Shown here in pieces: positions 4,415-17,825 of a stretch of 64,000 nucleotides of DNA. Both the position numbers and the translations under genes were made by a program. Each line of letters starts with the position of its first letter. The first letter of the stretch is position 1. The DNA is from Verrucomicrobiaceae bacterium. GTDB lineage: Bacteria; Verrucomicrobiota; Verrucomicrobiia; Opitutales; Intestinicryptomonadaceae. The stretch is from assembly GCA_015061955.1 (NCBI GenBank), contig SUVO01000006.1, forward strand, positions 1 to 64,000, in the 5' to 3' direction. The notes below the pieces were generated by a model that saw only the letters and a list, made by a program, of their open reading frames with translations, was not told where the DNA came from and made no database searches.

Positions 4415-5452
4415 TTATTTCTTTTTAGTTTCATCTATCCATGTAGGTTTTACGAGAGTAATCATATTTGAATTTTCACCTACAATGGCTGAGTTTCTAT
4501 TGAGCATATCGGCAAGTCTTCTTACAGCAACTTTACCAACTAAATCGTTATTTTGTTCAATGCCCATCCAATTTTCGAGTTTTCCTCTACGTTCTAACTG
4601 AACAAGTTTTATTTTCTTCTTTTTTATTAAGGGAATGGTTTTCAGAATTTCGCGAGTAGTGTTTAGCAGATACAATATTGCATCTGGATTATTCTGTGAT
4701 ATCCAACTTTCAAGATTATTTTTAAATTGTTCCGATTTTTCATCTTCCATAAATGGTTCTATGGGAGAGTTTGAAGTTTTTAGTTGAGCTCGTAGAAATC
4801 CACCTATGAGGGTACCACCAACTAAGTCGTCTATGCGTTCCTCAAGAATTATTCCTATGCGTTTATATCCGAGCTTTGAAACTTGGGTGTAGGCGTTATA
4901 CGATATTAAGAAGTCATCTGAAGCAACTACTTCTAACGACTGATTGTAAGTTCTTATGCCTGCGCTTACAAAATAAAAATCGTGTAGCAGTTTATTAAAA
5001 TCATCTGGAAAGGTGTTTCCGTAGGAATGGCCCAATACTATACCTCCACGAATTCCACGCGAATGAAATATTTTTGATATCTTCTCACTTTTGAAATTTG
5101 GCGAGTGTAACCAAAACTCGTTTATAGCATATCCCAAGCGTTCAGCTTCTTCTTTTATACCTTGATAATAACGTGGCAGGGTTGGGTGGCGTTCTAAGGC
5201 TAATTCATCTAAATTACCATTTATAACAGCTATTGTTTCTAAAAACGAGTTTACGTTCTTTTTACGCATTTTAGACATCAATGCTGATACCAACTCGTTT
5301 TTTTTATACCCCATTGCAATGGCTACGGTTTGCACACGCTTGCGTGTTTCTTCCGATACCATTGGTGAATTTCGTAAAGCAAACGATACTGCTCCTTTCG
5401 AGAGTTTTGTTTGCTTTGCAATATCGGCAAGAGTTATTTTTTTTTGAGCCAT
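4415..5452 (-). CDS. LacI-family transcriptional regulator
   Basis: A 345-aa repressor-type protein. Residues about 4-55 form the LacI helix-turn-helix (TLADIAKQTKLSKGAVSFAL) and hinge. The rest resembles a periplasmic-binding-like sensor domain (IRGGIVLGHSYG, VASDDFLISYNAYTQ, GYKRIGIILEE). It is the last gene of an apparent four-gene minus-strand operon, 38 nt after the MFS gene, so it probably controls that operon in response to a sugar or amino-sugar derivative. The effector cannot be read from sequence. Confidence 0.92.
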   Translation of the reverse strand: MAQKKITLADIAKQTKLSKGAVSFALRNSPMVSEETRKRVQTVAIAMGYKKNELVSALMSKMRKKNVNSFLETIAVINGNLDELALERHPTLPRYYQGIKEEAERLGYAINEFWLHSPNFKSEKISKIFHSRGIRGGIVLGHSYGNTFPDDFNKLLHDFYFVSAGIRTYNQSLEVVASDDFLISYNAYTQVSKLGYKRIGIILEERIDDLVGGTLIGGFLRAQLKTSNSPIEPFMEDEKSEQFKNNLESWISQNNPDAILYLLNTTREILKTIPLIKKKKIKLVQLERRGKLENWMGIEQNNDLVGKVAVRRLADMLNRNSAIVGENSNMITLVKPTWIDETKKK

Positions 5453-5490
5453 GCCCGTATTATGAGTATTTTAAAACAAACTTTAAAGTA

Positions 5491-6804
5491 TTATTTTTCA
5501 AAATTTGGTGGTTGATAGTAATCGTTTTGTCTGTTGCCATTTACAGCTGGAACTATGAACAACAGCAACAACCATAGTAGCGACAAGAAGCATGCAATTG
5601 CAAAAATGGATTGAATTGCCGAAAATATCATATCGCCTTTTTGCCATGTTGTAGCTAACATTCCACTCGCCAATAATATCGACGACAAAAATCCACCAAA
5701 CATACGTCCACCTGAAAAGAATGTATTAAAGAATGCCAACGATATAACGCGATTTTTTGGATTTGCCACCGAGTACATTTCTGCTGATGAAAAGCAGAAG
5801 AACCATGCAACATTCATACAATTTACAAATATTACAGCACAAACAAATTCATACAAATAATTCAAATTTTTCCCACTGAAAAATAGCGATGCAGTTATTG
5901 TTATGAACAGCAAGTGGATTAGTATGAGCATATACCTTGAGCCTAATGTTTTTAGAAGCTTACCAAATGTTAAATATCCAACAATACTGCCAGTTATTCC
6001 AAAGGTTGCAACAGTTTGTACTGTACTTACTCCGTAGCCGAGCGTTTGTTTTAAATATACTAAGGTTAAAGGCTGAATTAAGAAAGCAATTATTGCTACG
6101 AACATCATATAAACTGCAAACGATACCAAACAGCTATTTGCCATTGCTTCTTTTATCGATTTAACAATACTTTGCTTGTTGCTTTCTTGAGGTTGGAGTT
6201 CCAAGAAGTATACAAATATTGCCCGAGCAAATTGCAGAACTGCACATATTGCTATTAGTATTTGTAAAAGCCATATTGGTGGATTTTCTCCCATAGCTCG
6301 AGCTACTAAAAAGAAGAAAGCTCCTGCAAATATTGTATAAATGAAGCGTAAAAATCCAAAGTACGAGCCTCGCTCAGACGGAGCTACGAACGAGTCTACA
6401 ATAGGGAACCACGATGCACTGAATATAGGGCGCGCAATACAATATACAAAACACAAACCTACCACAACATATTTAGCTAAACCTCCAGTAATGGTAGCTA
6501 TAGCCATAAGTAGACATGCAAAGCACCCAATTGTGCAAGACAAATACATACTCTTTTTTAAGCCGATTTTTTCGGCGAGTATTCCACAAGGAATTTGCAA
6601 TAATAATGCTATAAAACCTGTTGCTCCAGCCATGAGCATATTTAACGATTCGTTTCCACCCAAAAGAGCAACGTACGATATCAAAATTGCAGAATTATCG
6701 AGCATAACTTCCGACAAACTTCCAAACGTGTTTGCCAGAATTGACCAAGCTTGGATTTTTCTACGTTTATTTACTGGGATTTTTTCTGCGAAAGTTTGCT
6801 CCAT
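5491..6804 (-). CDS. MFS transporter
   Basis: A 437-aa carrier with about 12 hydrophobic segments. It has MFS-like signatures between the early helices (GILAEKIGLKKSMYLSC) and a long central loop rich in Lys and Gln (LQPQESNKQSIVKSIKEA). It lies between a lacI-type regulator and an amidohydrolase gene, 17 nt from the latter. The context suggests uptake of the compound processed by the NagB-like and amidohydrolase products. The substrate is not predictable from what can be seen. Confidence 0.88.
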   Translation of the reverse strand: MEQTFAEKIPVNKRRKIQAWSILANTFGSLSEVMLDNSAILISYVALLGGNESLNMLMAGATGFIALLLQIPCGILAEKIGLKKSMYLSCTIGCFACLLMAIATITGGLAKYVVVGLCFVYCIARPIFSASWFPIVDSFVAPSERGSYFGFLRFIYTIFAGAFFFLVARAMGENPPIWLLQILIAICAVLQFARAIFVYFLELQPQESNKQSIVKSIKEAMANSCLVSFAVYMMFVAIIAFLIQPLTLVYLKQTLGYGVSTVQTVATFGITGSIVGYLTFGKLLKTLGSRYMLILIHLLFITITASLFFSGKNLNYLYEFVCAVIFVNCMNVAWFFCFSSAEMYSVANPKNRVISLAFFNTFFSGGRMFGGFLSSILLASGMLATTWQKGDMIFSAIQSIFAIACFLSLLWLLLLFIVPAVNGNRQNDYYQPPNFEK

Positions 6805-9118: not shown

Positions 9119-9318
9119 AAAACGTGCGAGATTGTCCCGATGCTTTTGCGTTTTAGCGAGCGTTGCTGTGCTACGCACTGCAGTCGAAGCTAAAACCAAA
9201 ATGGAGGGCAAAGCGTTTTCTTTGATGAGTTTATTTAATAAAAAAAGGCACTTCATTGAAGTGCCTTATAGTATAAATTAAAACTCATCATCAAAGAAAA
9301 CGTGGTCTCGCACGTTTT
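9119..9318 (-). repeat. Complete stop-codon-anchored inverted-repeat element, copy B1
   Basis: Perfect 13-bp terminal inverted repeats bound this ~200-bp element: 9306-9318 and 9119-9131, AAAACGTGCGAGA and its complement. On the minus strand the first repeat begins inside the TAA stop of the PEP-CTERM gene. Next comes a 19-bp outer arm (CGTTTTCTTTGATGA...), interrupted by 3 extra bases on one side, around the terminator at 9245-9267. A second stem follows, GTTTTAGC (9150-9157) with GCTAAAAC (9189-9196), tipped by GTGC-TAC-GCAC (9168-9178). The order of parts is the same as in element A although most of the sequence differs. Confidence 0.85.
9239..9267 (-). terminator. Intrinsic terminator of the PEP-CTERM surface-protein gene (element B1)
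   Basis: A perfect 10-bp stem AAGGCACTTC (9245-9254) pairs with 9258-9267 across the loop ATT, with a T-rich tail on the minus strand. It lies about 50 nt downstream of the stop codon. Confidence 0.85.
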
Positions 9319-11929
9319 ACTTGCGGCGACGATAGGCGATGAAACCAAGTGCAATAGCACCAAAAATCATAGCGTATGTGCTTGGTTCTGGAACTGCAGC
9401 TTTCAACTCTCCAGTTTCAGCATCAAAACTCCACTGTGAATTATCGAGAGTTTGACCGTTATATGTAACAGTCATGTTATCTTGCAAGCTTGCCAATGTT
9501 ACAGATTCGCCTTCTTGTGAGAGTGTAGCACCTTCTGCAAGTGTAAAGAGGTTTGTTGTGCCTGTGAAGTCTTCTTCAAGATTTACAGTGATTGTTGAGT
9601 TTGCACCCAGTTCGAGAGTTGCACCATCTTCAAGCGTAATCGAGCAACCATAGAGAATGATATCTGTATCATCACCAAGTGTCAAAGTTGCACCACTTGC
9701 AATAATGATGTCAGAAGCCCCGAGTGTGCTATTTACAATCATAGAGCCTTCGTTGACATTCAACATTCCTTTGAAGTATTCCATTGAAGAATTTACAACC
9801 AATGAGCCTGCTCCTGTTTTGTTGATTGTTGATCCATCTACCCCAGCAATCGAGTCATAACCTGCTGTGCCATTTCCGATTACAAGAGACTTTTTATCGG
9901 CAACATTAAAGTTTACTTTTACAGTAGACTTATTGAGCTTCATTAAGCCTCCATTTTCATCGCTGTCACCAGCATAATTACCGACAAACAAACCATCTTT
10001 ATCGATAACATTAAATGTAACCTCAGATGCACCCGTCATATGGATAGCACCACTATATGAAACTTTACCATTTGCAGAATTATTTGAAATATTTACATCA
10101 TTAAAAGTAACATTAGAATTATATATATATGCAACACCACCCATTGCAGTAGTATCTGTACTCTTAGCTTTATTCCCTTCAAATGTTACATTTGTGAACA
10201 CTACATCTCCTGTTACTGCAAAAATATTTGCAACACCACCTTGTGCTGTATCGAACCCGGGATTTACCGTAGATACTGTCCCATTTTGAAGAGCAATATT
10301 GTTTTTGAATATAGAATCATTTACATTCAATGAAACCTTCCCATTCGCAGAAATAACACCACCTTGCGTATTGTACGTTGACGACGCTGTGTTATTCTCA
10401 AACACAGAATTGTTTATATTAAGTTTTGCATCTGAAAAAGCATAAAACAAACTACCATGTACAGCAGAATCAACTTTTGCAGAAACAGATGTATTGTTAT
10501 CTGAAACAACCGCATTATTTACGGTCATTTCACCACCACCATCAATTCTTGCAATACCTCCACCAATGATACCTTTGTCCTTATCATTACTTATTGAGAT
10601 TGATACTGTGTTGTTCTTTACCGAAGCATTATTCCATGTTGTAGTACCTTTGGTGTTAATAAAACCTCCTTCGATATTGCCGTTATCGGTCTTAAGAACA
10701 GTCTTACCTTCTGCAACAAAACCATCAACGCTTAATGTTGCACCTTTCTTGACAAATGTTTTATCTGCACCCAAGCCATTATTAACGTCCATAGTGCCAG
10801 AGTTTACATTCAATACACCTGTAAAATATTCCATAGAACCATTTACAACCAACGAACCGTTACCAGTTTTATTGATTGATGTCGAACCTGCTTCTCCAAT
10901 CGAAGCGATAGAATCAAACCCAGCTTCACTATTTGCATTTCCTATTGTGAGTCTTGCGCCATCACCGATTTCAAACGTCGCAAATATATTGGACTTCGTT
11001 TCTTCTGATGAATTAGAGTTCAACATCAAGAAACCGCCACCTTCATCGCCAGTCAAACTTTGATTCCCCGTGTATGCCAACTCATTGCCTGATGAAACTT
11101 TAAACGTCATAGACTGACTGAACGAGTGAATTGCGCCACCTCTTCCAGCAGAATTGTTGGTAAACATCGAATCTTGAAATACAAGAGACCTAGATTCATC
11201 TTTCACACCATCATAATTACCCTGAGCTTGAACAGCACCGCCTCTAGAATATACGGCATTTGCTTCATTCACAGCATGGTTATCATTGAAAGTAACACGA
11301 TTAAAACTTACATTCTCGCCAACTTTTTCCGATGACATTCTCAAGTAAACAGCACCACCATCGGCTTTTTTATCAGCACTACCTGCAACAACCTTATTAT
11401 TATAAAAGGTTGTATCAGAAATATCCAAATCAGACTCCCAACTGATAATCGCACCACCCATTGCAAAAGAAGCGTAGGTAAGATCTCCGGTATAGTCGCC
11501 ATTAGAAGAGGTAATAGAATCAAATGTTGAACCAGTTATTACCGCCTTAGCGCCAACGCTATTGACATAAATAGCACCACCTTGAACTTGATATTGGCTG
11601 TGCATATTTATGTCTTTAAATATTGTATTATTAACAGTAAGCGTTCCGTCTGTTATGTGTGTTATACCACCATGCAACTGAGTAGCCTTTGCATTATCAT
11701 CACTATCCAAAGAAACAGATATATCCTTGTAGGTAATGCCATCCATTAATACAGACTGGGACTTAAAACTTCCAGCTACACTCCCATGAGCTGAACTATC
11801 CTGTGTGATTTCCACGTTCGACTGTGATTCGAGCATTTTTACCTCTGATGCCATTACTGCACCTGTAAACAATGCAAACAATGATGTTGTGAATATTATT
11901 TTTTTCATAAGTTTTTTAAGTAGAAACAT
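9317..11929 (-). CDS. Secreted PMP/PATR-repeat beta-helix protein with PEP-CTERM anchor
   Basis: About 870 aa, predicted to be exported and held at the surface. A signal peptide (KKIIFTTSLFALFTGAVMA) is followed by many GGAI/GGAV and FxxN motifs (GGAIYV, TTFYNN, VTFNDN, SMFTNN, GGAIHSF), the signature of chlamydial polymorphic membrane protein repeats. Two autotransporter-type PATR blocks, NKTGxGSLVVN...SMEYF..., lie near residues 350-390 and 700-740, so the passenger is an internal duplication. The C-terminus carries VPEPSTYAMIFGAIALGFIA then RRRK, a PEP-CTERM sorting signal; no autotransporter beta-barrel is present. I chose the ATG at 11929 because AAAGGA precedes it (short spacing) and a promoter lies upstream; 11908 is the alternative. 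Likely an adhesin or surface structural protein. Confidence 0.88.
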   Translation of the reverse strand: MFLLKKLMKKIIFTTSLFALFTGAVMASEVKMLESQSNVEITQDSSAHGSVAGSFKSQSVLMDGITYKDISVSLDSDDNAKATQLHGGITHITDGTLTVNNTIFKDINMHSQYQVQGGAIYVNSVGAKAVITGSTFDSITSSNGDYTGDLTYASFAMGGAIISWESDLDISDTTFYNNKVVAGSADKKADGGAVYLRMSSEKVGENVSFNRVTFNDNHAVNEANAVYSRGGAVQAQGNYDGVKDESRSLVFQDSMFTNNSAGRGGAIHSFSQSMTFKVSSGNELAYTGNQSLTGDEGGGFLMLNSNSSEETKSNIFATFEIGDGARLTIGNANSEAGFDSIASIGEAGSTSINKTGNGSLVVNGSMEYFTGVLNVNSGTMDVNNGLGADKTFVKKGATLSVDGFVAEGKTVLKTDNGNIEGGFINTKGTTTWNNASVKNNTVSISISNDKDKGIIGGGIARIDGGGEMTVNNAVVSDNNTSVSAKVDSAVHGSLFYAFSDAKLNINNSVFENNTASSTYNTQGGVISANGKVSLNVNDSIFKNNIALQNGTVSTVNPGFDTAQGGVANIFAVTGDVVFTNVTFEGNKAKSTDTTAMGGVAYIYNSNVTFNDVNISNNSANGKVSYSGAIHMTGASEVTFNVIDKDGLFVGNYAGDSDENGGLMKLNKSTVKVNFNVADKKSLVIGNGTAGYDSIAGVDGSTINKTGAGSLVVNSSMEYFKGMLNVNEGSMIVNSTLGASDIIIASGATLTLGDDTDIILYGCSITLEDGATLELGANSTITVNLEEDFTGTTNLFTLAEGATLSQEGESVTLASLQDNMTVTYNGQTLDNSQWSFDAETGELKAAVPEPSTYAMIFGAIALGFIAYRRRK

Positions 11930-11956
11930 TAATCCTTTATTATAAATCGCTAAAAG

Positions 11957-11984
11957 CATATAGTATTATAAATACCCATGTCAA
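11957..11984 (-). promoter_or_regulatory. Sigma-70-type promoter of the PEP-CTERM surface-protein gene
   Basis: On the minus strand a perfect TTGACA (11979-11984) is followed after 16 nt by TATATG (11957-11962). Transcription would start near 11950, leaving a leader of about 20 nt with AAAGGA ahead of the ATG. The palindrome at 11963-11975 lies exactly in the spacer. Confidence 0.55.
11963..11975. promoter_or_regulatory. Palindromic operator-like site 1 (GTATT-3nt-AATAC)
   Basis: A 13-bp palindrome GTATT-ATA-AATAC, between the -35 and -10 of the surface-protein promoter. Flanking bases (CCCATG on one side) are also shared with site 2. Confidence 0.45.
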
Positions 11985-13611: not shown

Positions 13612-13651
13612 ACTTAAATAAAAAAGGGAATGCCGAATACCGACATTCCCT
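13612..13651 (-). terminator. Intrinsic terminator of the QueG-like operon
   Basis: Minus-strand stem AGGGAATG (13644-13651) pairs with 13625-13632 and runs into a T-rich tract, 14 nt after the stop of the last QueG-like gene. Confidence 0.8.
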
Positions 13652-13665
13652 CTAAATATACTTAA

Positions 13666-14610
13666 TTACATTTCAAAATCTTCAGCCGAAAGCTTCCATT
13701 CTGGACGCTTTCTAAATGGAGTTTTGAATGTCTTTTTCAATGCACCCTTTTGTTCCAAGTGGATATAGCAAGCAGTATCGCAAGCTTTACCACAGATACT
13801 TGAACAATATGCGTGGCGAATTGGTGGGTAGAAGTTGATTTGGTCGAGGAGCTGTTTTGCTCTTTCTGGTGTAACCTTAACTTCGCCCTTAATGATATCC
13901 ATACGGTCAGGTTCGCCTTCAAATGCGTATGTTGGCATAAATGGATTTTTCTGACCATTACCACCAGCATAATAAACAGCACACTGCCAACGATTGAGTT
14001 CGCCATTTTCTGCGATAGCTTTCCCTGGGCAACCCTTTACGCATTCGCCACATTTGTCGCACAAGTGTGGTTGAACAACTGGATCTGGCTCAATTTCTGC
14101 ATCTGTAATGATAAACGCATAGCGTTGGAATGGACCAAATTCATCGGTGAGGATTGTACCATGCATACCACGTTCGCCCAAGCCTGCGTCTATTGCGCAC
14201 TGTTCGAAGTCGAGAGTATGTTCGGCTTTTCTACCACGATAGATTTTCTTATAGCCCACTTCTGGATTTGTGCTATCTTCTTCAGCCATAACAAGCTGAT
14301 TTCTGCGTTGTGGCAAAGCATCAAAGCCAGCATCTTCAAGCACATTGCAAGCTCTCAACAAAGCAGTTGGCAAAACTGTTTCTTCAACAGTTTCCAAACC
14401 TACCGTTGTAAAGTGGTGGTATGTTGTACCTTCTTCAATACCACGTCTTGCTCCACGCAACGAGCGTGCTGCTATACAGATAACTGTTTTTGCATTTGGG
14501 AACAAAAGTTTTACAGTTTTATCTTGAAAACGATCAGCTTCACCAAAGCGTGCTATATCGGCACCTGCTTTTTGGATTTCTTGTATAAGACGTTCTTTCA
14601 AAGTACTCAT
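13666..14610 (-). CDS. QueG-like 4Fe-4S protein, paralogue 1
   Basis: A 314-aa member of the epoxyqueuosine-reductase-like family (COG1600 type). Family-like segments include AKTVICIAARSL, GLGERGMHGTILTDEFGPFQ and FIITDAEIEPDP. Iron-sulfur ligands are CDKCGECVKGCPGKAI near residue 200 and a second Cys set, CSSICGKACDTAC, near residue 280. It is shorter than E. coli QueG (379 aa) and lacks the C-terminal HEAT-like part. It overlaps the preceding paralogue by 4 nt (ATGA), so the two are translationally coupled. With three paralogues together, a redox role other than queuosine synthesis is likely; cofactor and substrate are unknown. Confidence 0.82.
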   Translation of the reverse strand: MSTLKERLIQEIQKAGADIARFGEADRFQDKTVKLLFPNAKTVICIAARSLRGARRGIEEGTTYHHFTTVGLETVEETVLPTALLRACNVLEDAGFDALPQRRNQLVMAEEDSTNPEVGYKKIYRGRKAEHTLDFEQCAIDAGLGERGMHGTILTDEFGPFQRYAFIITDAEIEPDPVVQPHLCDKCGECVKGCPGKAIAENGELNRWQCAVYYAGGNGQKNPFMPTYAFEGEPDRMDIIKGEVKVTPERAKQLLDQINFYPPIRHAYCSSICGKACDTACYIHLEQKGALKKTFKTPFRKRPEWKLSAEDFEM

Positions 14611-15515
14611 AATGCACCTGTTTCCTTTAAGTGTTTATAACATGCTGTATCGCACTTCTTACCACACAAACATGGTGCATAACCAGTTGGTGCTGTTGGG
14701 AGGAAGTCGATTTTCTTATAGATTTCGCGAGCCGATTCTTTATCGAACACTTTATCGCCATTGATGATTGCTTCTCTTTCAGGATCATCTTTAAGGAAGT
14801 CATCGGTCATAAATGGATTCGATTTGTGAGCGCCACGATAATATACAGCACACTGCCATGTATTTATTGTGCCATCTTTTGCAATAGCTTTTCCTGGGCA
14901 TGCTTTTACGCATTCGTCGCAACCATCGCAGAGATTTCCACTGAATGGTTCGTCGCATTCTAATGGTGCATCTGTTACGATGTAAACTGTACGAATGAAC
15001 GAGCCAAACTTTGGCATAATTATATGACCATTCTTACCAACTGCACCCAAACCACAGATTTGTGCAGCCTGACCAAAGTCCATAATAATTTCTGGTGCTG
15101 GCTTACCTTCTTCTACTGGTTCAACGTGGATAAGTTCGTAAGTATCGCCCAATTCTGGGTTAGTTGTCTTATCGCCTTTAATACGAAGATTTGAAACATT
15201 GCGTTGCAAACAAGCATCGTAGCCATGGTCTTCGATGAGCGAACCCATCTTCAACAAGAAGATTTCCGACATTTCTTCGTCGATGAACTTTGTTCCCAAC
15301 TGAGTGTAGTTGAAGAACTGTGTTCCATCTTCCATTGTCTTATACAAAGCACGTGGAACACGGAAAGCAAAACCTATTACGCAACGAGCTTTTGGAAGAA
15401 TCGACTTTGGGTCTCTCTGTGGATTTGTTCCTTCAAAGTACTTGATATCACCGATACCGCATGCTACTGCGCCCAACTCGATTGCTTTTTCTTTTATGAT
15501 TTGTGCATTTAACAT
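14607..15515 (-). CDS. QueG-like 4Fe-4S protein, paralogue 2
   Basis: 302 aa, clearly homologous to its two neighbours: same KARCVIGFAFRVPRALYK region, CGLGAVGKNGHIIMPKFGSF, and ferredoxin motif CDGCDECVKACPGKAI near residue 198. A second Cys set, CLCGKKCDTACYKHL, is at the C-terminus. AAAGG precedes the ATG. It starts 18 nt after paralogue 3 and overlaps paralogue 1, giving a tight three-gene operon. The family contains cobalamin- and Fe-S-dependent reductases; whether this one binds cobalamin cannot be read directly. Confidence 0.82.
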   Translation of the reverse strand: MLNAQIIKEKAIELGAVACGIGDIKYFEGTNPQRDPKSILPKARCVIGFAFRVPRALYKTMEDGTQFFNYTQLGTKFIDEEMSEIFLLKMGSLIEDHGYDACLQRNVSNLRIKGDKTTNPELGDTYELIHVEPVEEGKPAPEIIMDFGQAAQICGLGAVGKNGHIIMPKFGSFIRTVYIVTDAPLECDEPFSGNLCDGCDECVKACPGKAIAKDGTINTWQCAVYYRGAHKSNPFMTDDFLKDDPEREAIINGDKVFDKESAREIYKKIDFLPTAPTGYAPCLCGKKCDTACYKHLKETGAL

Positions 15516-15533
15516 ATCTTACAAACCTTTCAA

Positions 15534-16616
15534 TTATCTATCCATAGCCCAAGCTTTTGGACGCGAACGCAACGGATTTTCAAATTTTTCGTAAAGTGTG
15601 CCACCTTTCTTTTCAAGCATACTTTCGCAAGCACGCAAGCAACCACCACATTTAGCCATATTATAACCAACCCATGATGGGAAGTATTTTTCAAGCTCTC
15701 CGTAGCACTTTAAGCACTCTTCAACGTTTGCAGCTTTCTTACCTTTGAGAAGGTCGAGGTCTCCCTTTTCGTCTTTTTCCCATACGTCCTTTGGAACGAA
15801 CGGATTGAACTTTGGACCACCATGAGTGTAGAAAGCGTAGCAACGCCATTCATCAAGCTTACCCCATTCGCAGACTTTACCACCAACTGTAACCTTGATA
15901 CTTTCGTCTTTACTGATGCAACCACCTGGGCATTCACGAACACATGCCATACAACGACGACAAAGTGATGGACCCGAATAAAGTGGATCTGGTTCTAATT
16001 CTGCATCAGTGAAAATAAATGCCAAACGCTGTCTCGAACCAAACTGAGGGCTCAAGAACATCTTTGACCAACCAATTTCACCCAAACCACAAGCTACACC
16101 TACCAAACGGAAGTGAATTAAAAGGTCTGGTGGAACTTGACCTGGACGTGCCGGACGTGCCATTGCAGAACGGTTATAGTCATGCTTCCAAAGAGGTGCA
16201 CCACTATTGATAAGATCAGTAATTTCTGCGTGTTCTTCTGGTGAAACTGTCTTACCTGGCTTACCATCCATATCCGATACGCAACCACGAGCACCAGTGT
16301 TGCGATATGGGAAAGCTTCATAACCATGGTCTTCAATAAGTTTGCCTACTTGGTAAATAACGGCTGGAGCCGAAATTTCATTAATACCACCGTAAGCCAT
16401 TGAAGGATACTGATAAAACTGTGTACCTTCTTCTATACCTCTCTGCAAACCACGAGGAATGCGGAAAAGCATACCGATAATTGACTTGGCTTCAGGAAAC
16501 AACTGCTTAGGATCCAATTCCTTTGGGACGCTTTCAAAACGCGACATATCACTTATGCCGACGGCATCAGCGCCCGCTGCAAGAGCTGCGGCCTTTACCA
16601 TTTCACTTGTTAACAT
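15534..16616 (-). CDS. QueG-like 4Fe-4S protein, paralogue 3
   Basis: 360 aa from the ATG preceded by AGGAGG, the strongest ribosome site of the operon; a longer upstream frame is ignored. It shares the core of its neighbours (AKSIIGMLFRIPRGLQRGIE, GVACGLGEIGWSKMFLS, FIFTDAELEPDP) and has CRRCMACVRECPGGCI near residue 245. A second set, CGGCLRACE, is at the C-terminus. It carries an extra block of about 40 residues in the middle (PGKTVSPEEHAEITDLINSG). It is first in the operon and divergent from the U32-like gene, with a 198-bp shared control region. Confidence 0.82.
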   Translation of the reverse strand: MLTSEMVKAAALAAGADAVGISDMSRFESVPKELDPKQLFPEAKSIIGMLFRIPRGLQRGIEEGTQFYQYPSMAYGGINEISAPAVIYQVGKLIEDHGYEAFPYRNTGARGCVSDMDGKPGKTVSPEEHAEITDLINSGAPLWKHDYNRSAMARPARPGQVPPDLLIHFRLVGVACGLGEIGWSKMFLSPQFGSRQRLAFIFTDAELEPDPLYSGPSLCRRCMACVRECPGGCISKDESIKVTVGGKVCEWGKLDEWRCYAFYTHGGPKFNPFVPKDVWEKDEKGDLDLLKGKKAANVEECLKCYGELEKYFPSWVGYNMAKCGGCLRACESMLEKKGGTLYEKFENPLRSRPKAWAMDR

Positions 16617-16775
16617 TTGTATAGTCCTCCTATATTCGAGTATTGGGTTATTGTATTTTCTACAAAAAATTAAGGTATAATTATTGTAAAAAGCTATCTT
16701 CATATTGACACTTATACAATTGAAACGCAAGCAAAAATTACTCCCTTTATTTTCAATCTATATGATCCAAATGCT

Positions 16776-16804
16776 TGACAACTTTTTTCAAAAAAAGCAT
16801 TATT
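16776..16804 (+). promoter_or_regulatory. Candidate promoter of the U32-like gene
   Basis: TTGACA (16776-16781), a 17-nt spacer, then CATTAT (16799-16804). The predicted start point is only a few bases before the ATG at 16815, and no Shine-Dalgarno sequence is visible, so the transcript could be leaderless. Confidence 0.45.
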
Positions 16805-16814
16805 ACTACCAAAT

Positions 16815-17825
16815 ATGAAATTTACAGTCGGATATCAAGTAAACGATTCTTTAAAGAAGTCTATTTTAGCTAATAAAGAAAAAATAGCCGAAATATATTT
16901 TCCATGGGGTAATTTTACCAACGGACGTGGTGTAATAGAAAGCAAATATGTTCAGCGTCAAATGGAAGTAGATCTTGCCGAATATGCGTCGGAAGGTTTT
17001 GAAATGAATTTGCTTTTAAATGGCAATTGTTATGGTCGTTATGCGCAATCGCGTACATTCTTTATGTCGATTGGCGACAACGTTCAGGAGTTAATTGAAC
17101 GCTACAAGTTAGGCTCTGTAACAACTACATCGCCACTCATAGCAAAATTTTTAAAAACTAATTTCCACGATATTGAAGTTCGAGCTTCGGTAAATATGGA
17201 AGTTGGATCTGTCGAGGGAATGAAGTACATATCCCAATGGTTCGATAGCTTTTATTTGAAACGTGAGTACAACTACAACTACAAAATGTTAAAGACTGCA
17301 TACGACTGGTGTGTTGAAAATGGCAAGAAGCTATTCATTTTGGCAAATAGTGGTTGTTTGAACTTTTGTTCGGCTCATAATTTTCACGACAACCTCGTTG
17401 CTCATCAACATGAAATTGCTGAAATGGACAACGCCTACGAGTTTCATGGAGTGTGTCATGATTTTCTTTCTGTTGCTGAGAACAAGAAGCGTTTACTTCA
17501 TTACACGAATTTTATCCGTCCTGAAGATGTACATTTGTACGAAGGTTTGTGTCATGGTATGAAGCTTGCTACACGAACAAATCGCAATCCGGCAGTTGTT
17601 GTTGATGCTTATTGCAAGGGTAAGTTTAGTGCTAATGTTCTCGATTTAACAGAGCCAAGCCATGCGGCACATATGTATCCTACAGTAATTGAAAACAGTA
17701 AAATTGCTCCAGATTACGCAGAACATCGCTTACATTGTAAAAAGGAATGTTTGCAATGTGGTTTTTGCGATACTGTTCAAAAAAACGCATCGGTAGACTT
17801 AATTGACACCACTCATTTAACTTAG
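16815..17825 (+). CDS. Peptidase U32-like / UbiU-YegQ-like Cys-rich protein
   Basis: A 336-aa soluble protein. The N-terminal half has the look of a TIM-barrel U32 domain (EIYFPWGNF, NLLLNGNCYG, VRASVNMEVGSVEGMKY). The central NSGCLNFCSAHNFHDN and the C-terminal CKKECLQCGFC could be iron-sulfur or other metal ligands, as in UbiU/UbiV and TrhP-type U32 proteins. It diverges from three QueG-like Fe-S proteins and shares their control region, which hints at a joint pathway. Its reaction is unknown, and the U32 assignment rests on general pattern, not on a clear signature. Confidence 0.62.
   Translation: MKFTVGYQVNDSLKKSILANKEKIAEIYFPWGNFTNGRGVIESKYVQRQMEVDLAEYASEGFEMNLLLNGNCYGRYAQSRTFFMSIGDNVQELIERYKLGSVTTTSPLIAKFLKTNFHDIEVRASVNMEVGSVEGMKYISQWFDSFYLKREYNYNYKMLKTAYDWCVENGKKLFILANSGCLNFCSAHNFHDNLVAHQHEIAEMDNAYEFHGVCHDFLSVAENKKRLLHYTNFIRPEDVHLYEGLCHGMKLATRTNRNPAVVVDAYCKGKFSANVLDLTEPSHAAHMYPTVIENSKIAPDYAEHRLHCKKECLQCGFCDTVQKNASVDLIDTTHLT

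Follow-up and report, generated by a model that had tools for sequence, protein, structure and literature searches.

QueG and the reductive dehalogenases (RDHs) are the only structurally characterised Class III B12 enzymes named in PMC4646009, where further families of this class are expected, yet with no motif by which to find them; no cobalamin-binding motif exists for Class III. According to the same source, the ligands of the outer cluster of QueG are C184, C187, C190 and C243, those of the inner cluster are C194, C210, C236 and C239, and the active-site motif is Asp-Tyr-His (D100-Y101-H102). Reductive dehalogenases have a Y-K/R dyad, the basic partner of which lies at the R305/K488 position (PMC10463259), and in PceA R305 lines the ring over the cobalt (PMC5500849). 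A different group of Fe-S proteins is formed by the U32 family, whose common cysteine motif is CX6CX15CX3/4C and of which UbiU and UbiV, with one [4Fe-4S] cluster each and a role in O2-independent hydroxylation, are members (PMC6747719). The locus described here brings relatives of both groups together, in a real and conserved module of three paralogues (QG1, QG2 and QG3) and a U32-type partner. The module is apparently undescribed; no account of it was found in the literature.

Genes of the locus

The window (i.e. the whole stretch of 64,000 nucleotides that was analysed) belongs to contig 18 of a genome of 2.43 Mb. The four genes are present where the original prediction placed them and at the sizes it gave for the three paralogues (314, 302 and 360 aa), in the following arrangement:

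13623-13653, (-) strand: terminator-like hairpin with T-run, just 3' of QG1
13666-14610, (-) strand: QG1, 314 aa, QueG/RDH-superfamily Fe-S protein
14607-15515, (-) strand: QG2, 302 aa, paralogue
15534-16616, (-) strand: QG3, 360 aa, start ATG at 16616
16617-16814, no strand: divergent intergenic region of 198 bp between QG3 and the U32-like gene
16815-17825, (+) strand: U32-fold protein, 336 aa
17849-17878, (+) strand: terminator-like hairpin, 3' of the U32-like gene

QG1 and QG2 overlap by 4 bp, while QG2 and QG3 are spaced by 18 bp; a longer QG3 of 398 aa, beginning at a TTG start, finds no support in the alignment. The hairpin with its T-run 3' of QG1 suggests that the QG operon stops short of the downstream transporter gene. 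This gene, of nucleoside H+ symporter type (PF03825; 12345-13583, (-) strand), follows directly after QG1 behind the hairpin, and was rejected as an operon member both on account of that hairpin and because it is missing from the loci of congeners, where another MFS gene stands in its place; it is probably outside the QG operon. The shared divergent region of 198 bp to which the original prediction drew attention does exist in the window but is not general, as the U32-like gene lies on the opposite strand only in the window genome and is co-directional in all other loci, and a shared divergent promoter was therefore discarded as a feature of the system. Promoter-like matches within 16617-16814 (e.g. 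16775-16803, (+) strand) are no more numerous than in shuffles of the region.

Elsewhere in the window, a LacI-type regulator adjoins an MFS gene (4415-6804, (-) strand), the latter being a 34-37% relative of the transporter that is adjacent to the module in congeners, and amidohydrolase-like and NagB-like genes (names as read from the sequence) come next. At 9317-11959 ((-) strand) lies an 880-aa repetitive secreted protein with a PEP-CTERM-like tail (VPEPSTYAMIFGAIALGFIAYRRRK).

Fold, clusters and active-site residues

As had been claimed, QG1, QG2 and QG3 are paralogues (34-40% identity), each with a CxxCxxCxxxC motif, a single additional Cys and three more towards the C-terminus. In an alignment of 76 QG orthologues these eight Fe-S cysteines are invariant; their order is the same as that of the QueG ligands, and QG1 and QueG have identical numbering at 184/187/190/194/210. 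The positions are as follows:

QG1 Fe-S cysteines: 184, 187, 190, 194, 210, 273, 277, 281
QG2 Fe-S cysteines: 196, 199, 202, 206, 222, 284, 288, 292
QG3 Fe-S cysteines: 219, 222, 225, 229, 259, 323, 326, 330

The scores of the three window proteins (in the order QG1, QG2, QG3) are 47, 60 and 32 bits against the QueG model TIGR00276, for which the cut-off is 200, and 44, 43 and 49 bits against the reductive dehalogenase model TIGR02486, for which it is 160, while the best sequence match in a profile search was to a PceA-type reductive dehalogenase (E 7e-14). Since every QG falls under the QueG cut-off, the earlier label of "QueG-like" is valid at the superfamily level only.

An AlphaFold model of QG3 (pLDDT 77, pTM 0.79, with residues 109-165, close to the presumed active site, poorly modelled) matched QueG with Z 17.4 over 219 residues at 4.1 A, PceA with Z 15.7 and NpRdhA with Z 15.3; next in fold came the B12 proteins CblC (Z 10.1) and CblD (Z 8.5), with FMN nitroreductases (Z <=6.4) below these. 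Core fold and two-[4Fe-4S] cysteine pattern thus both agree with QueG. The presence of a base-off corrinoid in the nitroreductase-like domain of the QGs would agree with this fold and, because there is no cobalamin-binding motif for Class III (PMC4646009), it is from the fold that corrinoid binding is predicted.

At the place of the DYH motif, which is kept in the genuine QueGs of relatives, the QGs have no such motif in the alignment but EEGTxF/YxxY. The column of QG3 R197, where QueG has Phe, is Arg in 95 of 95 QG1-3 and one-QG members; profile alignments, counted by hand, place R197 on PceA R305 and NpRdhA K488, and QG1 Arg163 likewise falls on the K/R that is catalytic in reductive dehalogenases, i.e. 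by alignment the QGs possess the basic residue of the Y-K/R dyad. The Tyr70 column is Tyr in 91 of the 95 members, column 70 being Phe in the QG1 of four members of the window's genus. In QG3, a long helix begins at Tyr70, as one does at the DYH motif in QueG, and Tyr70 is likely, if tentatively so, to be the dyad tyrosine, an assignment made from topology rather than from a firm alignment. At one catalytic residue, the QGs lean closer to the reductive dehalogenases than to QueG.

Read by eye, the N-termini of all three window QGs show no Tat signal. A Tat-type N-terminus is found in respiratory reductive dehalogenases, and a QG paralogue with a Tat-like start (MSRLSRREFLASS) was seen in two other loci (L097:11037-12230 and L098:6894-8087). 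A chain of 756 aa with two QG-like domains lies upstream of a one-QG and U32 module (L108:5613-7883), and in L090 QG2 and QG1 share one frame of 615 aa, possibly a real fusion or else an indel; an apparent fusion of 747 aa in L124 proved to be an upstream frame extension.

For the partner protein, the name "U32-like" stood as regards fold but not as regards the Pfam family. Its model matches 5d88 (Mk0906) first both by Foldseek (E 6e-9) and by Z (16.4), the next matches being unrelated TIM barrels with Z 12.8, but the window protein does not reach the PF01136 cut-off. Of nine orthologues searched, three match PF01136 (best E 0.0027), and the U32-like profile gave no useful sequence match to canonical U32 proteins of the same genome. 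Cys72, 181, 185 and 214, together with His191 and His197, are invariant in 71 U32-like relatives, these four family-wide cysteines having a spacing unlike that of the PF01136-type four-Cys [4Fe-4S] motif, and a C-terminal C308-x3-C312-x2-C315-x2-C318 set is near-invariant in the family; the protein likely holds one or two clusters.

Conservation, duplication and genomic context

The U32-like gene is present in six of the 19 genomes of the family, all in the window's genus, and QG1-QG3 adjoin it in exactly those genomes (6/6); within the genus the module is patchy (6/14 genomes). No window-type U32-like gene was found in the other 267 sampled genomes of the order, while the wider U32-like family occurs in 96 of the 387 genomes that were sampled across the phylum, most sampled genomes being MAGs. 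Three layouts were seen in 60 further neighbourhoods. The full module, U32-QG3-QG2-QG1, accounts for about 28 loci, and a small module, which pairs U32 with a QG3-like gene, for about 20; in the third layout U32 stands by itself or in tandem. QG3 is the type present singly in one-QG modules. L123 and L126 have U32-like genes in tandem arrays of three to five, that of L123 adjoining a gene for B12-dependent methionine synthase.

The original prediction had made its survival depend on conservation of the neighbourhood in relatives, and such conservation was found: among the sampled loci of Opitutales and Lentisphaeria where QG3 is full-length, U32 lies alongside in 27 of 30. A search of the phylum for QG3 gave 66 genomes, 64 of them also having the U32 family (Fisher p 4e-46; the count is approximate, as the number of candidates taken from each genome was capped), and about 32 genomes have U32 with no QG3-type match at the threshold used. 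Co-conservation of the four genes across families is far beyond chance. Because three genomes of one Lentisphaeria family (L139, L140, L141) have QG3-QG2-QG1 with no adjacent U32, the triad is the tighter unit and U32 is separable from it. In one congener pair, QG3 is 91% identical as against 69% for U32. The carriers are uncultured, mostly gut-associated bacteria; no plasmid homologues of the module were found, and the reach of a scan of all species was to close relatives only.

In a maximum-likelihood tree, for which the tool warned that long branches meet at some key forks, QG1, QG2 and QG3 each form one clade (100/100 support), with the one-QG proteins outside these clades. At a two-QG locus (L120), one QG is basal to QG3 and the other to QG1+QG2. 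Taken together, these placements are the pattern expected of stepwise duplication, from one to two to three, in a series that runs from ancestral QG+U32 pairs through one two-QG intermediate to the triplet.

Profile searches place LacI genes at the flanks of 14 of 28 full modules, as against none of 175 other ORFs, a contrast somewhat favoured by the profile having been partly built from adjacent regulators (a single-sequence search was too weak, and the profile was used instead); IclR genes were found in small modules. Other neighbours of the module encode MFS and EamA transporters, aldose epimerase, GH39 and GH63/trehalase-type hydrolases, xylose-isomerase-like barrels and FAD oxidoreductases, and the neighbourhood suggests inducible catabolism of a sugar-linked compound. 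Searches for a cobalamin riboswitch in the window and four other loci found none, and no gene recognised as serving B12 transport or remodelling lies among the scanned neighbours. B12 is probably in use in the window genome, since this encodes other B12-binding proteins; their frames, of 1233 and 732 aa, would suit methionine synthase and methylmalonyl-CoA mutase in length.

As to queuosine, the window genome has no QueG over the cut-off, and QueH is present. Module genomes of the genus occur on both sides, with QueH in two (G000 and G009) and a genuine QueG in the other four. The genuine QueGs of relatives score 215-236 bits against the TIGR00276 cut-off of 200, six of the seven in the family having been checked, all over the cut-off, and that of G002 lying outside the check. 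Because either QueH or a genuine QueG covers the step independently of the module, a queuosine role was rejected on the basis of gene content; the module is clearly not part of the queuosine pathway, and the view of it as a joint redox system of related subunits and a U32-type partner, rather than a queuosine gene set, is supported. Across the family (G000-G018), genomes have QueH or QueG and never both, in a clean swap between close relatives, while G008 gave no match in any search.

Readings of the module and known systems

The reading towards which we incline, with some confidence though well short of certainty, is that of a catabolic module whose core is a new subfamily of Class III cobamide reductases, accompanied by a U32-type Fe-S partner. 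The N-terminal nitroreductase-like domain of a QG would hold a base-off corrinoid, with the two-[4Fe-4S] ferredoxin region alongside; electrons would pass from a donor through the two clusters to cobalt, and the bound substrate would be reduced, with a proton coming from an RDH-like dyad of the invariant Arg (QG3 R197) and probably Tyr70. QG3, nearest in type to the one-QG form, would probably be the main catalyst, while QG2 and QG1, arising from duplication, would probably assemble with it into a hetero-oligomer, where QG1, whose Tyr is replaced by Phe in some members of the window's genus, may have a structural or electron-transfer role. For the U32-fold Fe-S protein, a step on the same compound is proposed, either preceding or following that of the reductase and possibly an O2-independent hydroxylase-type reaction such as some other U32 proteins carry out. 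The substrate would probably be a small molecule that carries a leaving group (OH, OR, halide or epoxide); it may be released from glycosides and imported by the neighbouring transporters, and LacI/IclR-type regulators would switch expression of the module. Overall, the evidence points to a small molecule being reduced anaerobically in a reaction not described so far. A bolder proposal, which we offer as tentative and on the whole doubtful, is that the module represents a third functional class among the Class III B12 enzymes, in which a heterotrimer acting as cobamide reductase and a U32-type Fe-S enzyme together break a non-halogen bond (C-O or similar), the targets being diet-derived glycosides or aglycones in gut Lentisphaeria and Opitutales.

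It is conceivable, though unlikely, that the QGs now work without cobalamin, as a multi-cluster electron-transfer complex serving a U32-type enzyme. Three paralogues with two predicted clusters each would suit such a role, as would the Fe-S nature of U32 proteins such as UbiU/UbiV (PMC6747719) and the Phe at column 70 of QG1 in four members of the window's genus; however, no member has lost the N-terminal domain or the RDH-type Arg, B12 proteins come next in the fold ranking, and three genomes have the triad but no adjacent U32 gene. The same Arg, together with the best sequence match, leads to PceA/NpRdhA and hence to the idea of a true organohalide reductive dehalogenase system, to which the Tat-like start of the L097/L098 paralogue might also be added, but this has only a slim chance of being right, given scores far under the RDH cut-off (43-49 of 160 bits), window QGs with no Tat signal, and modules accompanied by sugar-type regulators and glycoside hydrolases.

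Those regulators, being of carbon-source type, likewise sit badly with an RNA-modification system, as do the patchiness within one genus (6/14 genomes), the covering of queuosine by QueH or genuine QueG, and the lack (from protein length) of a QueG-type HEAT domain; we consider such a system very improbable, even though QueG provides a precedent and RNA is the target both of QueG and of several U32 proteins, among them some that hydroxylate tRNA (PMC6599085). Least credible to us is a corrinoid-processing system of CblC/CblD type, as opposed to a substrate reductase: these folds do rank next after QueG and the reductive dehalogenases, but CblC has no ferredoxin region (PMC4646009), the RDH-type Arg is kept in the QGs, and the scanned neighbours included no recognised B12 transport or remodelling genes.

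Under the favoured reading of a cobamide reductase module, the locus is a concrete, conserved and non-queuosine candidate for a Class III family, offering a natural series of one, two and three subunits produced by duplication and usually accompanied by a partner, in gut bacteria that are for the most part uncultured; if true, it would mean an extra B12 dependence and a new anaerobic reduction in gut chemistry. Compared with CblC/CblD (MMACHC/MMADHC), the QGs share the B12-binding nitroreductase-like fold (Z 8-10), but CblC and CblD have no Fe-S region and a trafficking role. With QueG (tRNA epoxyqueuosine reductase, TIGR00276) they have in common the core fold (Z 17) and the order of the eight cysteines, but score 32-60 of 200 bits, lack DYH, have an Arg for QueG's Phe, are too short for the HEAT-repeat domain, come as three copies accompanied by U32, and have no tie to queuosine. 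With PceA/NpRdhA (TIGR02486) the likeness extends to the core fold (Z 15-16), the two-cluster ferredoxin region and the catalytic K/R position, whereas the QGs reach 43-49 of 160 bits, are smaller, in the window carry no Tat signal, and form three paralogues in a sugar-type context. The U32-like protein, finally, resembles the PF01136 proteins (UbiU/UbiV, TrhP, RlhA; Mk0906, 5d88) in its TIM-barrel fold and conserved cysteines, and differs from them in falling under the Pfam cut-off, in having C72, C181-x3-C185 and C214 plus a CxxxCxxCxxC set, and in that its genes mostly adjoin QG genes.
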